Virus record (IMG/VR): IMGVR_UViG_3300049846_001113
Location: 1 to 33,931 of that record
Reading direction: 5' to 3' (one strand)
DNA: 33,931 nucleotides
From: a virus
Part shown: one piece after another, positions 5,617 through 29,844 of the stretch
Layout: each line of letters begins with the position of its first letter
How positions within the stretch are numbered: position 1 is the stretch's first letter
Program-made: the position numbers and the translations under genes
The notes under the pieces: model-generated
What the model saw: only the letters and a program-made list of their open reading frames with translations
What the model was told of the DNA's origin: nothing
Database searches by the model: none

Positions 5617-5778
5617 ATGCCGTGCGGTAAATTGTTCTTTCTGGCAATGAAGAAACAGCGGGCGCGGCGGCCTGAGGCGATACGGGAGGCGCGTCTAGCC
5701 ATGCGGCGGCATTTGCAGGAGTGCCAGTATTGCAAGCGACAGGCACGCAGGATATACGGTAAAAAAGCCGTCACTTGA
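5617..5778 (+). CDS. Small ZAS-like zinc-finger protein
   Basis: A 53-aa basic protein containing HLQECQYCKR, an H-x3-C-x2-C pattern like the zinc centre of anti-sigma (zf-HC2) domains, plus an N-terminal MPCGK cysteine. It starts right after the phosphoesterase. A GTG at 5611 overlaps that stop (TAGTG) and is an alternative start that adds two residues. An anti-sigma role is a guess from four residues; it may simply be a small nucleic-acid binder. The final codons lie within the dyad at 5767-5782. Confidence 0.6.
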   Translation: MPCGKLFFLAMKKQRARRPEAIREARLAMRRHLQECQYCKRQARRIYGKKAVT

Positions 5779-5782
5779 CGGC
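5767..5782. terminator. Dyad, possible minus-strand terminator
   Basis: GCCGTCA-CT-TGACGGC forms a perfect hairpin (6-7 bp) preceded by six A residues on the plus strand. It therefore reads as a hairpin plus U6 terminator on the minus strand. No minus-strand gene is visible upstream of it, so its role is uncertain. It also overlaps the TTGACG of the promoter-like element that follows. Confidence 0.4.
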
Positions 5783-5798
5783 GAAACGGGATTATAAT
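5775..5798 (+). promoter_or_regulatory. Promoter-like element, AAACGG-N3-TATAAT family
   Basis: TTGACGGCGAAACGG, 3 bp, then TATAAT at 5793-5798. The same AAACGG-N3-TATAAT core recurs at 6155-6166 and 27273-27286. TTGACG is only 12 bp from the -10 box, too close for a normal sigma-70 -35. Either the AAACGG is the functional upstream element (activator or phage-specific), or the -35 is dispensable. Transcription would start at about 5805, next to the ATG at 5806, giving a leaderless or nearly leaderless mRNA. Confidence 0.6.
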
Positions 5799-5805
5799 TA
5801 ATTCA

Positions 5806-6096
5806 ATGGATGTAAAGCTATCTATAAATCCCCTTGGTGAAACATGGACGCCGGGCAACATTCCCGTTAAGCCTGGCTGGTACTCAGTATCTTGCGCTGT
5901 TTCAGACAAATCGAACAAGGGTATATTTCCCGGCGCGTCTTATTGGAACGGTGAAACGTGGGATTGTACGTCTGATAATGTAATTGCGTTTTTTGGGTCA
6001 TTTGAAAGCAAAAAAGACGCAGAAAATTGGGCAGCGAATCACGACATTGGTATTCATACAATGGATGATTGGTGGCTATGTCCTGATTGGATGTAA
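5806..6096 (+). CDS. Hypothetical Trp-rich protein
   Basis: A 96-aa acidic protein I do not recognise. It has an unusual number of tryptophans (for example VKPGWYSVS, YWNGETWDC and a DDWWLCPDWM C-terminus). It is a small soluble globular candidate without membrane segments. It is the last gene before the RNA module at 6161-6271 and appears to have its own promoter with almost no 5' leader. Its base composition is more AT-rich than the flanking head genes, suggesting a moron-like insertion between the two halves of the head operon. Confidence 0.65.
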   Translation: MDVKLSINPLGETWTPGNIPVKPGWYSVSCAVSDKSNKGIFPGASYWNGETWDCTSDNVIAFFGSFESKKDAENWAANHDIGIHTMDDWWLCPDWM

Positions 6097-6151: not shown

Positions 6152-6166
6152 AAACGGTAGTATAAT
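6152..6166 (+). promoter_or_regulatory. Late-type promoter P-A (AAACGG-N3-TATAAT)
   Basis: GAAACGGTAGTATAAT with TATAAT at 6161-6166. It shares a 15-base identical core (AAACGGTAGTATAAT) with the promoter at 27272-27286. A TTGACG at 6143-6148 is only 12 bp upstream and is absent from the other late copy, so it is probably not the deciding element. The expected start is near 6173, just before the structured RNA and the capsid/tail operon. Confidence 0.65.
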
Positions 6167-6172
6167 CTCACT

Positions 6173-6271
6173 AACAACTTATACCGCTTGTGGATGAGCC
6201 ACGGCGGGACATGCTACTAGAAATCTAGCGGCTTTCGCAATCTCAAAAGGATTGCGGGAGCCGCTTTTTTT
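6173..6271 (+). ncRNA. Structured RNA module, copy A (upstream of capsid/tail operon)
   Basis: Three elements follow promoter P-A. P1 is a 9-bp hairpin with one bulged pyrimidine (arms 6184-6193 and 6199-6207, loop ATGAG). An invariant core, TAGAAATCTAGCGGCTT at 6218-6234, can form a small hairpin (GCTA 6213-6216 with TAGC 6226-6229). A 15-bp hairpin (6228-6242 with 6250-6264) is followed by seven T (6265-6271). Copy B at 27293-27390 aligns without gaps from TATAAT to the last hairpin, and P1 is kept by compensatory changes. It ends 85 bp before the scaffold gene. It is either a terminator-containing leader (attenuation/antitermination) or a stand-alone small RNA of about 100 nt. I know no named family matching it. 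Confidence 0.8.
6228..6271 (+). terminator. Intrinsic terminator of RNA module A
   Basis: A 15-bp stem (with two U-G pairs), 7-nt loop TCAAAAG and a U7 tract give a strong factor-independent terminator. Unless read through, it would separate promoter P-A from the capsid/tail genes. Its first two stem bases (6228-6229) are shared with the small upstream hairpin, so the two structures compete at the base. Confidence 0.8.
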
Positions 6272-6356
6272 ATTTCGTTATCCGCCAAACGTACAAGGGG
6301 CGGGCGTCATGTGAACCGACCACATACAAAAGGGTAGACGCGAAAAGGAAACAGGT

Positions 6357-17392: not shown

Positions 17393-17436
17393 CCGTGGTA
17401 TGTGGTGAACTCTCCAAACTCATACACTAACCACGG
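17393..17436. other. Imperfect 44-bp dyad, candidate attP
   Basis: CCGTGGT (17393-17399) and ACCACGG (17430-17436) form the outer 7-bp arms. Weaker matches lie inside (GTG..TG against the complement of CATACAC). It spans the 36-bp gap between the convergent fibre and serine recombinase genes and enters the recombinase 3' end by 10 bp. Attachment sites of serine integrases are about 40-50 bp imperfect dyads, commonly next to the integrase gene. There is no U-tract on either side, so a terminator is less likely. Confidence 0.4.
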
Positions 17437-18869
17437 AAAATGACTTTCATCTCCAAATCTGGACTAATGGAGATATGGCACAGGCGGAGGAGCAAGCGGT
17501 TTACAATGCGCGGCTCCTCCGCTTGCATCCATTCGGGCAAGTAGGCCAGTAAAGCGCGGGCCTGTTCCAGTGTAACGCTAAACTGCTTACGGATCGTATC
17601 ACGGCGGAGCCTTTCAGCTTCGCCGTTTTTATATGCATGTATCCGCTTGTCTATCTCCCTGATTTTCCCCTCTGCCTCCTCCAGTGTGTACAGTTCGGAC
17701 TCATACGCGGCTTGCACCCGCCGCCGCTGTTTCTCCAATTCGGGCGTAGGATCGGGCGCGGGTTCGGTCTGCATGGGCGCTCCGGGCTGTACGTCATGCA
17801 GGGCTTTTTGCAACAGGCGCGGGGCCAGGGCAGATAAATGCTCGTGACGAATTAGCACATGATACTTACCGGGGCAATGCCACACAGGGACCGCGTAAGA
17901 GGGGTCATGTATCAGGCTTTTATTGCAGACCGTACAGCGTACAAGCCCGCTATATGGGTAGCGGTTCTGCTTGGGTGCGGACTTGCGGCGCTTGACCTCC
18001 TCCAAAATCGCCTGGTGCTCCTCCCATGTGACAATCGCCTTATGCCTGCCGTCCATAAGCAGGTAGTTATCATTTTGCACGCGGCGGGAGGTGTTGTTGT
18101 GCGGATCGTTGATCACCTTCCAACGCTGAAAAAAGACCTTGCCCGCATAGAACGGATTTATCAGAATTTGGCGGATCGTGGTTATCTCCCACGGCTTCCC
18201 CGTAACGGTGCTTACGTGATTCTCTTTTAGCATGGTGGCGATGGCGTCATACGTTTCACCCGCTAGAAACATATCCACCATCTTACGCACATAGGCCGCC
18301 TGAGACGGGACCAACTCAGCGGGCGCTTGTTTCTGCCCTGGTGCGCTACGGTATCCAAACGGCACGCGAATCGAGTGCAAGCCCCGATTGACGCGGGATG
18401 TTACCCCATAGCGGAATTTGCGTTTTAGGTCGCTGATCTGCCAGCGGGAGATAATTTGAGACATGCCCCGCATGATGCTCTCAGAGTCGGATGCGTACGG
18501 GTTGTACTCCTCAGGCGGTAGCGGGTCTACCGGTTGGGATACGCTGTACAGCTGGACGCCGTAGGATGATAGTGTTTTGGCTACCGGGTCTAACAGATCG
18601 CGCAAGCGGTTGTAATCGTAGAGTACCAGCAGGTCATACCGGCCCCCTTTTGCATCGTCCAACATGCTGGCAAGCGCGGGGATCGCCCGCTCTGCGTCTC
18701 TGAGATTGACCCAGCGCGTTCTGGATTCCCCCGGAACCTGATACGTCAACCCGGTATCTTGCCAGCCCTTTGCAGTGGCTACAGCGCGGGATTTAGCCTC
18801 TTGCTCTGCAAGTGAGGCGTTATCGGTTTGTTTTTCGGTGGATACAGCGGCCCAAATGGAAAAGCGCAT
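17427..18869 (-). CDS. Large serine recombinase (integrase), atypical active site
   Basis: A 480-aa recombinase expected to join phage and host attachment sites. Resolvase-type N-terminal domain: WAAVSTEKQ with nucleophile S10, then LLVLYDYNRLRDLLDPVAKTL. Recombinase domain about 160-290 (YGVTSRVNRGLHSIRVPFGYR, INPFYAGKVFF). Zinc ribbon about 308-333 (C312, C315 and C332 visible). Coiled coil about 375-425. Two departures from the classical site: the Arg two residues before the Ser (R8 in gamma-delta resolvase) is Ala, and the R-x-x-R helix motif reads R-L-R. Its ATG directly follows the stop of the 55-aa gene, at the end of the repressor operon. Confidence 0.9.
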   Translation of the reverse strand: MRFSIWAAVSTEKQTDNASLAEQEAKSRAVATAKGWQDTGLTYQVPGESRTRWVNLRDAERAIPALASMLDDAKGGRYDLLVLYDYNRLRDLLDPVAKTLSSYGVQLYSVSQPVDPLPPEEYNPYASDSESIMRGMSQIISRWQISDLKRKFRYGVTSRVNRGLHSIRVPFGYRSAPGQKQAPAELVPSQAAYVRKMVDMFLAGETYDAIATMLKENHVSTVTGKPWEITTIRQILINPFYAGKVFFQRWKVINDPHNNTSRRVQNDNYLLMDGRHKAIVTWEEHQAILEEVKRRKSAPKQNRYPYSGLVRCTVCNKSLIHDPSYAVPVWHCPGKYHVLIRHEHLSALAPRLLQKALHDVQPGAPMQTEPAPDPTPELEKQRRRVQAAYESELYTLEEAEGKIREIDKRIHAYKNGEAERLRRDTIRKQFSVTLEQARALLAYLPEWMQAEEPRIVNRLLLRLCHISISPDLEMKVIFRG

Positions 18870-26637: not shown

Positions 26638-26892
26638 ATGAAAGTAATTTGTCCTATTTGTGAAAGAGTAATTGGCGCATATATCCCGAAAGGGGGTGAT
26701 GGTTCTGCCTATCGCCCGCGCCGTCATGGTGAATGTGAAGGTCGCTTTGAGTTGGTTGAGGAAATTTACGAAGAAGCGCACCTAACAAAGCGTGCAGCGG
26801 ACGTTTCGGCATGTCCGAGTTGCAAAGAAGTTGGTTTACGAATTGTTGATACTTGCGTTGGTTGTGGTTTCGATTACTCGAAACGCCGCTAA
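26638..26892 (+). CDS. Cassette ORF 2: double zinc-ribbon protein
   Basis: An 84-aa protein. CPIC near the start and HGEC form one Cys cluster; CPSC and CVGC form a second near the end. So probably two zinc ribbons, similar to small rubredoxin-like or transcription-linked ribbons. The stop codon falls inside boundary element 3, as gene stops often do within integron attC sites. There is no good Shine-Dalgarno before its ATG; element 2 lies directly upstream. Confidence 0.62.
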   Translation: MKVICPICERVIGAYIPKGGDGSAYRPRRHGECEGRFELVEEIYEEAHLTKRAADVSACPSCKEVGLRIVDTCVGCGFDYSKRR

Positions 26893-27271: not shown

Positions 27272-27286
27272 AAACGGTAGTATAAT
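27272..27286 (+). promoter_or_regulatory. Late-type promoter P-B (AAACGG-N3-TATAAT)
   Basis: AAACGGTAGTATAAT with TATAAT at 27281-27286, identical over 15 bases to P-A. No TTGAC lies upstream. It drives RNA module B and, if the terminator is passed, the lysis/packaging block. Confidence 0.65.
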
Positions 27287-27292
27287 TATTGA

Positions 27293-27390
27293 GACAAATC
27301 ACACCAAACGCGGATAAACCGCTTTGGGATATGCTGTTAGAAATCTAGCGGCTTCTGTGCCTGGTAACGGGCGCGGGAGCCGCGTTTTTT
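27293..27390 (+). ncRNA. Structured RNA module, copy B (upstream of lysis/packaging operon)
   Basis: Homologue of module A, colinear without gaps for 88 nt from TATAAT to the end of the 5' arm of the final hairpin. P1: CCAAACGCGG (27304-27313), loop ATAAA, CCGCTTTGG (27319-27327); nine pairs with one bulged C. Five of the nine P1 pairs differ from copy A, and all remain pairable. The invariant TAGAAATCTAGCGGCTT is at 27338-27354. The 15-bp hairpin 27348-27362/27369-27383 is kept although its inner sequence differs. After one G there are six T (27385-27390). The holin-like gene starts 25 bp later. Same interpretation as copy A. Confidence 0.8.
27348..27390 (+). terminator. Intrinsic terminator of RNA module B
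   Basis: A 15-bp stem including several U-G pairs, loop GGTAAC, then G and U6. It would block transcription from P-B into the lysis genes unless relieved. Confidence 0.75.
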
Positions 27391-27415
27391 ATTTCACCAT
27401 ACAGGAGTAAATACA

Positions 27416-27757
27416 ATGCTTGAACTATCCCCGGAAATCCTTTTTGCCGTTGCCCTTGTCGCCTCTGTTGCGGTATGGGGTATCAAGCAGTACGCCAAGA
27501 CGGGCCGCCAGATCCCGGATGCTGTTTTGACATCCGGCGTCTATGTGGTTTCGGCGGTGCTGGCGTTATTTTTCTCGCCGGTGAGTTTGCCGCCGTTCCC
27601 TGCCTTTGTGGACCTGTTTACCTTTATCCCGGCGTTGATTGCCTGGGTAGGGGCGCTTTTGGTTCCGCTTTCAGCCTTTGCCGGTTTTGCTGGATTGATC
27701 TATCAAGCGTTATTGAAACGAATTTTGGACGGCATGGCCGCCCGTTTGCGTGGATAA
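27416..27757 (+). CDS. Holin-like membrane protein
   Basis: A 113-aa protein with three or four hydrophobic segments (about 5-24, 38-56, 65-84 and possibly 85-103) and a charged C-terminus (KRILDGMAARLRG). It lies just before the lysin with one gene between, in the first position of a lysis block, and has a strong AGGAG Shine-Dalgarno. Predicted to form the membrane lesion that releases or activates the endolysin. Holins are too diverse to name the family. Confidence 0.75.
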   Translation: MLELSPEILFAVALVASVAVWGIKQYAKTGRQIPDAVLTSGVYVVSAVLALFFSPVSLPPFPAFVDLFTFIPALIAWVGALLVPLSAFAGFAGLIYQALLKRILDGMAARLRG

Positions 27758-27763
27758 CACCCT

Positions 27764-28081
27764 ATGGACTCAGGCGTCATTATTGCCCTCATTACGGCAG
27801 GGGCCACCATTGCAGCAAGCCTGATAGCGTTTCACGCAGGGCGGGCGGGGCGTGTTGCCCAGAACGCGGATACCCTGATTGACCTACAGAACCAAACGCA
27901 GAAGTTTTCAAATGAGTTGATAGAAGTAAAGAAACAACTGGACAGTTTCAACCATAAAAACTCTGTGCTTTGGAAGTACGTTTACGCATTGGTCGAACAG
28001 CTTCGCACAAATGATATTGTGCCTGTCCCGCCGCCCTCTGAATTGGAAACAGACCCGAAACTGATTGCATTGATCCGTTAG
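27764..28081 (+). CDS. TM-anchored coiled-coil lysis accessory protein
   Basis: A 105-aa protein. One N-terminal membrane helix (about 4-24, GVIIALITAGATIAASLIAF). Then a long coiled coil (about 35-65, ADTLIDLQNQTQKFSNELIEVKKQLDSF), an aromatic helix and a Pro-rich end. It sits between holin and endolysin, like antiholins or haemolysin-XhlA-type lysis factors (XhlA has its TM at the other end). Its stop overlaps the lysin GTG start (TAGTG). Confidence 0.7.
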   Translation: MDSGVIIALITAGATIAASLIAFHAGRAGRVAQNADTLIDLQNQTQKFSNELIEVKKQLDSFNHKNSVLWKYVYALVEQLRTNDIVPVPPPSELETDPKLIALIR

Positions 28082-29844
28082 TGAAAAACATCCTTACATC
28101 CCCCCGGCTATATTGGCTATGGCGCATAGGCTGGTTAGAGCGTGCGTTCTTTTACGCTTGCCGGGCGCTGGATAGCGGGCGCGGAACAGCGCGGGCGTTT
28201 TTGGAACTGTGGCAGGGCTTTGATATATCCTATTATCAAGGCGCTGTAAACTTTGCCAAAATGCTGGCGTATGGGGCGCGGTTTCTGGTTTTGCGGGTGG
28301 TGTATGCTGCTAAAAAGGATGTGCGCTTTGAGGAGTACATAACGGCGGCCTTTGGCCTGTTACCGTTATCAGTATATTCTTTTTACGACCCAGCCGTAGC
28401 GCCACAAACTCAGGCTAATGCGGTAATCGACGCCCTGCAACCGCATAAGGGCAAGTTCCGGCGCGTGTGGCTGGATTTTGAATTTTGGTGGAGTGGCGCA
28501 TATAGTGACCCGAAGTGGTGGAAAGTCTACCGGGATACGATAGAAGCGGCGGGATATGCAACAGGAATATACACCCGTGCTACCTGGTGGGATTCGCGGG
28601 TAGGCATTTACGCGGCGGAGTTTGCGACCCGTCCATTATGGGCGGCGCAATACTCATCCGCCTTGACGTTGATCCCTAAAGGCTGGAAAGCGGCAATGAT
28701 ATGGCAGGACAGGGTACTAACCAACGGGCCACAGGTAGGGGTATCTTCGCCGGAATTAGATCACAACCTATGGAACGCTGACTTTGACTTTTCAGCCGAA
28801 TGGAACACAGCAGGCCCGGCAATAGTCATACCGAACGGCTACACACAGATCCGGCGCTTTAGTAGTGATGTCCATATCGTGAAAACAGCGACATTCACGC
28901 GGGCGCATGTGACCAACACGGGCGGCGCATTGCGTACCGTGTCCAGTGTGGCAGGCGGCGCGGCGTATGCGATCAACGTAGACGGATGGGATAAGAGCAA
29001 GCCCGCCCCGTTCGTTCCGTTGTCCGTGGCTTGTAGTGACGGGAACCTTTACCAACCCATACAGTTTGACTTTAGGCCGTTGTTCAACATTCGCCCAGAT
29101 GGTTGGATTGAAATAGGGCACTCAGGGTTTTCAGGTTCAGACCTGTACAACGCCGGAAGCGGTACGCGGTATTTGGTCAAGGCCGGGAATAACGCGTTTG
29201 ACGGCAGTACGGACCCGGAGCATATAACAGAGCGCAATCCCCGGAGCGCACTAGGGTACACGGCAAACAGAGCCTTGATTCTCATGGTGGTAGACGGGCG
29301 GAGCGCGTCAAGCGCCGGGGTAACGTTGCACGAATTGGCGGAACTGATGAAACAGGCGGGCGCTGAATGGGCGCTTGAACTGGACGGCGGCGGCTCTTCC
29401 GCGTTGTGGGTCAAGGACCGCATTGTAAACAGGCCCAGCGACCCAACCGGAGAGCGGGCGGTAGTCAATCATTTATTGATCTATGAGGCAAATATGGCAA
29501 ACGGAACAGCACGCGAAAAGCTAGGGAATACTTCAACCGTTCGGAGCCTGCCCACTCGTTACGGGGCAAAGCTGGGGAGCGTGAATCCATATACCACGGT
29601 TGAATTTACGGAGATCGTACCGGCCCAGATCGGCGGGACGGCAGACAACCCGGCAGACAAGTGGCTGAAACTGGCTAGTGGCGGGTATGTGAATTACATC
29701 TTGAACGGTGCGGAGTATTACACGGTCTTGACGCAACCGACCCCGGAAACCCCGCCCGCCGTGCCTGATGGGATTGAGGTCAAGATCACTGAGAACGGCG
29801 TAACCAAGACGTACAGGACAGACGGCAAGGTAGTGGTTTCCTAA
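28081..29844 (+). CDS. Endolysin: GH25 muramidase + NAGPA domain + SH3-like end
   Basis: A 587-aa protein starting at GTG 28081. Residues about 44-235 form a GH25 lysozyme domain: GFDIS (D48), VWLDFEF (D132, E134), IYTRATWW and DHNLWNADFDF. Residues about 290-470 are a phosphodiester glycosidase (NAGPA-like) domain: NRALILMVVDGRSASSAGVTLHELAELMKQAGAEWALELDGGGSSALW and ERAVVNHLLIY. Residues about 475-550 look like an SH3-type wall-binding part. GH25 cuts the MurNAc-GlcNAc bond; the NAGPA domain likely acts on a sugar phosphodiester, perhaps of the wall. No signal peptide is clear, so holin-dependent export is expected. Confidence 0.9.
   Translation: MKNILTSPRLYWLWRIGWLERAFFYACRALDSGRGTARAFLELWQGFDISYYQGAVNFAKMLAYGARFLVLRVVYAAKKDVRFEEYITAAFGLLPLSVYSFYDPAVAPQTQANAVIDALQPHKGKFRRVWLDFEFWWSGAYSDPKWWKVYRDTIEAAGYATGIYTRATWWDSRVGIYAAEFATRPLWAAQYSSALTLIPKGWKAAMIWQDRVLTNGPQVGVSSPELDHNLWNADFDFSAEWNTAGPAIVIPNGYTQIRRFSSDVHIVKTATFTRAHVTNTGGALRTVSSVAGGAAYAINVDGWDKSKPAPFVPLSVACSDGNLYQPIQFDFRPLFNIRPDGWIEIGHSGFSGSDLYNAGSGTRYLVKAGNNAFDGSTDPEHITERNPRSALGYTANRALILMVVDGRSASSAGVTLHELAELMKQAGAEWALELDGGGSSALWVKDRIVNRPSDPTGERAVVNHLLIYEANMANGTAREKLGNTSTVRSLPTRYGAKLGSVNPYTTVEFTEIVPAQIGGTADNPADKWLKLASGGYVNYILNGAEYYTVLTQPTPETPPAVPDGIEVKITENGVTKTYRTDGKVVVS

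Follow-up and report, generated by a model that had tools for sequence, protein, structure and literature searches.

Why would a phage place the same small RNA module, promoter element and intrinsic terminator included, in front of its scaffold and capsid genes and again in front of its lysis genes? This is the question raised by the window, i.e., the whole stretch of 33,931 bases that was analysed, which is the virus record IMGVR_UViG_3300049846_001113 and carries a 127-bp direct repeat at its ends, so that the assembly is probably complete and circular, at about 33.8 kb. A first-pass annotation, made from the letters alone, had noticed the second copy of the module (copy B) before the lysis/packaging block. 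That observation is confirmed here, and its interpretation, partly supported, is recast as what is likely an antiterminator/terminator switch with a likely trans-acting factor.

Two modules ahead of the late genes

The core UAGAAAUCUAGCGGCUU occurs twice in the window, against 0.05 occurrences expected by chance, and a repeat search matched 6174-6234 to 27294-27354, the two being 72% identical; the two modules to which these stretches belong, copy A (6152-6275, + strand, preceding scaffold and capsid) and copy B (27272-27393, + strand), are the sole two in the window. Each consists of a -10 element, a hairpin termed P1, the conserved core and an intrinsic terminator. Both begin with the same 15 nt, AAACGGTAGTATAAT (6152-6166 in A, 27272-27286 in B), a putative promoter whose -10 hexamer in copy B lies at 27281-27286, with no good -35. 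P1 (6184-6207, CCGCU u GUGG AUGAG CCAC GGCGG, in A; 27304-27327, CCAAA c GCGG AUAAA CCGC UUUGG, in B) has the same shape in both, namely 5 bp, a 1-nt bulge, 4 bp and a 5-nt loop, and four of its nine pairs differ on both sides with all pairs retained, a degree of compensation that was reached by 32 of 500 shuffles, these being modest statistics from two sequences only. A linker (27328-27332 in B) leads to the predicted antiterminator, which in copy B (27333-27352, GCUGUUAG-AAAU-CUAGCGGC) has 8 uninterrupted bp and -9.3 kcal/mol and in copy A (6213-6232, GCUaCUAG-AAAU-CUAGcGGC) has one A-C mismatch and -5.7 kcal/mol. Both terminators are strong and followed by U-tracts: that of copy B (27348-27383) reaches -33.6 kcal/mol, with its U-tract in the sequence at 27385-27390, and that of copy A spans 6227-6265, with its U-tract at 6265-6271. 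The first-pass annotation had proposed that an RNA module was duplicated, that selection keeps its fold while the inner terminator arm has diverged, and that the module has to be read through for its promoter to express the genes downstream; this agrees with the shared P1 and with leader folding well beyond that of shuffled sequences (z of -6.9 in A and -6.3 in B), and the inner arm does differ between the copies as claimed. The distance it gave to the holin-like gene is likewise exact, as the ORF starts at 27416, 25 bp past the end of the U-tract at 27390, with AGGAG at 27403-27407.

Read along the + strand from copy B, the gene order is the holin-like ORF (27416-27757, 113 aa, hydrophobic), a second ORF (27764-28081), a GH25 endolysin (28081-29844), terminase (31053), portal (2026) and minor head protein (3469), followed by copy A, scaffold (6357), major capsid protein (6921) and tail genes up to about 17.4 kb. 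Neither Pfam nor PHROGs gives a family match for ORF 27416-27757, so that the label "holin" would be a putative one, taken from position and hydrophobicity. From 27.4 kb to 17.6 kb, via the circle, the only strong intergenic terminators on the + strand are those of copy B, of copy A and one at 17,626, so that two late transcription units follow one another, the first headed by B and the second by A. As no strong intergenic terminator was detected from copy B to copy A around the circular genome, the transcript of copy B can span the lysis, terminase, portal and head genes, and its control probably reaches beyond lysis.

Some other elements of the genome deserve mention in their own right. In the endolysin, GH25 is joined to a second domain, a phosphodiester glycosidase (NAGPA), and the ORF upstream of the portal gene (131-1696) has about eight 20-aa repeats at 862-1501, with a TETDSL motif and mostly 60-nt spacing. 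A serine recombinase with Resolvase and Recombinase domains is encoded at 17427-18869 on the minus strand, from which the phage is probably temperate. A third promoter-like site, CTTGACGGCGAAACGGGATTATAAT (5774-5798), is 92% identical to that of copy A and precedes ORF 5806-6096 without a terminator module. Directly after terminator A, at 6276-6336, there is a match to GP20-b RNA (RF03003) of 27.3 bits, below the Rfam cut-off of 36.2; the same RNA scores above the cut-off in a relative (locus L019, 2722-2779). GP20-b shares with copy A the intergenic region before the scaffold gene, but it lies downstream of the terminator and is absent at copy B; the scaffold gene is preceded by two separate RNA elements, the copy A module and this one.

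How, then, could the module act as more than a terminator? The antiterminator and the terminator of copy B share the strand GCGGC (27348-27352), which is the 5' base of the latter. As long as the terminator still lacks its 3' arm, the nascent RNA of either copy has a minimum free energy fold made of P1 and the antiterminator, the 5-nt linker and the AAAU loop being common to A and B; the addition of that arm converts the fold to the terminator, again in both. Each antiterminator is much weaker than its terminator; as good a hairpin was found in 2 of 3000 shuffles for B (counting shuffles that paired no fewer arm bases) and in 57 of 3000 for A, and the variation between the two copies, which are the two sequences that the window offers for this hairpin, is confined to its 5' strand. 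Copy B thus presents two hairpins with one common strand and a U-tract after the second, the arrangement of an attenuator, and since the two hairpins exclude each other it would be more than a plain terminator. The core UAGAAAUCUAGCGGCUU has to serve both hairpins, which explains why it did not change when the P1 stem and the upper part of the terminator did. The fold and the terminator of the first-pass description are both there; what it missed is that the core is an antiterminator arm, more than a spacer. An alternative stem in the window, GAAA:UUUC, was dropped as weaker.

The same plan in related phages

Searches with the capsid and terminase yielded 158 loci from IMG/VR and 80 from genomes (numbered here with the prefix L), the best genome matches being MAGs of Anaerolineae (Anaerolinea, Leptolinea, Anaerolineales). 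In these phages about 45 modules built in the same way were counted ahead of scaffold, holin or terminase genes; they consist of TATAAT, often ACAACUGAAUA near the RNA start, an optional hairpin, an antiterminator and a terminator. Many relatives have such a module upstream of the scaffold gene, and one precedes holin-like genes in L014, L021, L093, L106, L112, L114, L117, L119, L126, L127, L136 and L137. The TATAAT sits at the same place as the -10 of copies A and B, and 32 of the 44 promoters checked have an extended -10 (TGn). Some relatives have the promoter and lack the terminator entirely, which makes the switch optional. At the level of sequence the window module finds little company: an exact search for its core in IMG/VR returned coding or chance matches only, a covariance model of A and B run over 65 related loci matched A and B only, and a DNA-level search in phage records gave no match. 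A match in L269, a genome of the Anaerolineae class, was discarded as most likely due to chance, given its GC-rich sequence and overlapping ORFs. Neither the window module nor those of the relatives match any Rfam family, and a limited search of the open literature found no publication describing the module. Skipping-rope RNAs (RF02924) occur on the minus strand in L117 (11862-11941, at about 500 bp from the scaffold-side module, on its upstream side) and in L042 (3534-3630).

Two subsets of relatives speak for the antiterminator stem. In the first, of 14 phages, the helix is 95.7% paired, with 8 cells changed on both sides, and its covariation score of 0.611 was reached by none of 500 shuffles, slid versions scoring at most 0.24; RNAalifold found the helix unprompted in the same alignment. 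In the second, with looser sequence, all 28 leaders pair with the terminator base in a stem of 4 bp or more, and swapping the arms between phages lowers the pairing, with 1 of 5000 permutations as exception. The same swap was not significant in the first subset (1213 of 2000), where it is uninformative because the arms are alike between phages, leaving the covariation test as the source of support there; an initial swap on the unfiltered set was weak due to unrelated terminators mixed in. A GUGG:CCAC pairing, taken in isolation as the antiterminator register of relatives, was discarded because it does not covary. In the relatives, the antiterminator stem is kept by covariation, at the position that the copy B antiterminator occupies in its own leader, and the comparison gives good support to a predicted antiterminator/terminator switch.

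If both copies in one phage answered to one signal, as the first-pass annotation suggested, they should resemble each other where that signal is read. Across the 13 phages with two usable copies, the likeness of the antiterminator core is 8.9 within a phage and 2.0 between phages, a difference reached by none of 20,000 permutations, while the corresponding values are 5.3 and 3.1 for the upstream promoter sequence and 2.1 and 0.1 for the distal terminator. A recent duplication alone would keep all parts alike; what is observed is that the core is shared far more than the others. In the phage of L114, for instance, the module before the holin gene reads GUCGG-CUUUAGCAA-CCGGC and that before the scaffold gene GUUGG-UUUUAGCAC-CCAAC, the stems of same-phage copies differing yet compensating and the loops agreeing. 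A common core with compensated stems and agreeing loops is the trace expected of a shared factor that reads sequence. Together with the pairing of holin and scaffold modules, which recurs in relatives, this speaks for one signal over two operons; against it stand L060 and L151, whose copies have no common core.

A zinc-ribbon protein as candidate partner

What could such a factor be? An all-vs-all comparison of the ORFs preceding the holin-side module pointed to a protein of 73-95 aa with two CxxC knuckles, whose gene stands directly before the promoter in L017, L093, L106 and L114. A profile of these four members, run over 33,183 ORFs, added L105, L115, L092 and L151, and the resulting 8-member profile, run over 46 whole records, added the phages of L014, L021, L005, L042, L074, L048 and L060. 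For the 11 zinc-ribbon genes found blind in this way, a module within about 100 nt downstream is clear in 10 and probable in one (L261, from the phage of L048), in which the terminator seems to overlap the gene end, a case that was judged by eye and counted as probable only. As background, 5.2% of ORFs of at least 60 aa have any strong terminator within 160 nt downstream. In all, about 15 relatives have a small zinc-ribbon gene immediately upstream of a module; a weak match in the L113 record (E 1e-4) comes without one. Pfam and PHROGs return generic zinc-ribbon matches only, among them a weak one (E 0.005) to phrog_6417, a phage "translational regulator" family. The AlphaFold model (pLDDT 92) predicts a small domain rich in beta structure, followed by a C-terminal helix, which fits a zinc ribbon, and a fold search with it gave no confident match in the PDB or among viral models.

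The profile search of the window phage itself found no member of the family, and neither did a search of 199 genomes of the Anaerolineae class, which was run without a positive control. The ORFs upstream of copy B yielded no homologs. The second of them (26638-26892, + strand) encodes a small CxxC protein that we consider a weak candidate, as hhalign aligns it to the zinc-ribbon family (A8) with a probability of 59% over an 18-residue zinc knuckle only. The zinc-ribbon family is the best candidate for the trans-acting factor, by guilt by association in the relatives and by extrapolation to the window phage. A possible alternative is a small, weakly DUF2292-like protein, which was observed upstream of the holin-side module in L126 (5612-5804), L127 (5599-5857), L137 (4966-5182) and L117 (2460-2679), phages that yielded no zinc-ribbon gene.

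The proposed switch and its alternatives

We put at roughly 0.6 the probability that copy B is a factor-controlled transcription attenuator heading the lysis/packaging operon, and that the phage has two such attenuators. RNA polymerase would start at the -10 promoter at 27281; P1 would fold first, then the antiterminator hairpin (27333-27352) and finally the terminator, which would capture the antiterminator 3' arm (GCGGC), so that transcription would stop before the holin-like gene. We infer this termination to be the default state. The antiterminator, with or without P1, would be held by a trans-acting factor, for which an RNA-binding protein made by the phage towards the end of its early phase is the most likely choice. 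This would keep the terminator base unpaired, thereby raising read-through into lysis and packaging in the course of infection and perhaps setting the time of lysis; copy A, and with it the capsid/tail operon, would be opened by that factor too. In many relatives it would probably be the zinc-ribbon protein encoded directly upstream of the module. The support for this proposal comes from sequence and comparison, i.e., the promoter element, P1, the exclusive hairpins, their recurrence, the covariation, the common cores and, in the relatives, the zinc-ribbon linkage. The wider claim of a new late-gene switch of Anaerolineae-related phages, in which a zinc-ribbon protein binds a covarying, terminator-overlapping antiterminator and one protein opens at least two late operons (lysis/packaging and capsid), is put forward tentatively, its chances standing somewhat below even.

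Known systems offer close parallels. Antiterminators of the BglG/LicT/SacY type are protein-stabilised RAT hairpins with two asymmetric internal loops that overlap a terminator; the window hairpin also overlaps its terminator, but its stem has no internal loops (B) or one mismatch (A), and their RNA-binding domain, CAT_RBD (PF03123), has no match in the phage record. In the leaders opened by the RNA-binding ANTAR proteins EutV, AmiR and NasR, a P1 hairpin is followed by a P2 that overlaps the terminator 5' arm, and several leaders of one regulon share this plan (PMC3369936). Copies A and B have the same succession of P1 and terminator-overlapping hairpin; however, ANTAR recognition requires A1 and G4 in the hexanucleotide loops of both P1 and P2 (PMC3369936), and the window P1 loops are AUGAG (A) and AUAAA (B), with AAAU as the second loop, which do not follow that rule. 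The ANTAR domain (PF03861) has no match in the phage record, although a factor could lie outside it.

Could the RNA folds be incidental instead? In phage lambda, one factor, Q, serves the late genes, and the succession of late promoter, short leader, terminator and lysis genes at copy B is that of the lambda pR'-6S-tR' region and of AlpA targets. A Q- or AlpA-like protein would load on the polymerase at a promoter DNA element and later ignore the terminator; AlpA binds between the -35 and the -10, upstream of intrinsic terminators (PMC7969949), and just before the -10 of the window modules there is a sequence, AAACGGTAG, which is identical in A and B and has a close counterpart, AAACGGGATTATAAT, at the third site (5784). 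Such processive antitermination is nevertheless unlikely here, for Q and AlpA depend on promoter DNA and polymerase, whereas the window antiterminator overlaps the terminator and what is conserved is the RNA hairpin more than the promoter: same-phage copies share the antiterminator core (8.9 vs 2.0) and little of the upstream sequence (5.3 vs 3.1), and a DNA-loaded factor does not need covarying antiterminator stems. Among the phage proteins scanned with Pfam and PHROGs there was none of the Q or AlpA families, several early ORFs matching nothing. An RNA acting by itself on the polymerase would be another solution, as in HK022, where put needs no phage protein and acts through the zinc-binding domain of the polymerase beta' subunit. 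The put RNA is about 70 nt long and forms two stem-loops just after PL (PMC9378689), and the window too has two stem-loops in about 60 nt immediately 3' of its promoter. We find this very improbable, as put requires neither terminator overlap nor protein factor while the second hairpin here overlaps the terminator, a constitutive action would make that terminator pointless, the core varies between phages while being common within each, and a zinc-ribbon gene is linked to the modules in relatives.

An attenuator that senses a host signal (metabolite, ribosome, tRNA or small RNA) rather than a phage protein would have the same antiterminator/terminator logic, with P1 as a conceivable sensor; this we consider improbable given the lack of an Rfam match, the phage-specific conservation of the core, and the fact that no sequence resembling a ligand pocket is conserved between phages and no leader peptide was seen. 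Finally, a plain terminator duplicated together with its promoter, with a fixed partial read-through and no regulation, might insulate operons or release a short stable RNA, which would be in line with the great stability of the terminators and with their absence from some relatives. Neither covarying antiterminator stems nor cores shared within a phage are expected of an unregulated terminator, and the chances of this explanation are as low as those of a put-like RNA.

The proposed antiterminator/terminator switch recurs in related phages and has a candidate zinc-ribbon partner there. The module would constitute an RNA family missing from Rfam, and it might find use in the laboratory as an orthogonal protein-RNA transcription switch. 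Little is known of the timing of capsid assembly and lysis in phages outside the lambda model, and an RNA switch dispersed in this way, together with its candidate protein, would offer a directly testable point of late-gene control in uncultured phages. If the proposal is true, attenuation by RNA hairpins would do in these phages what lambda does with Q.
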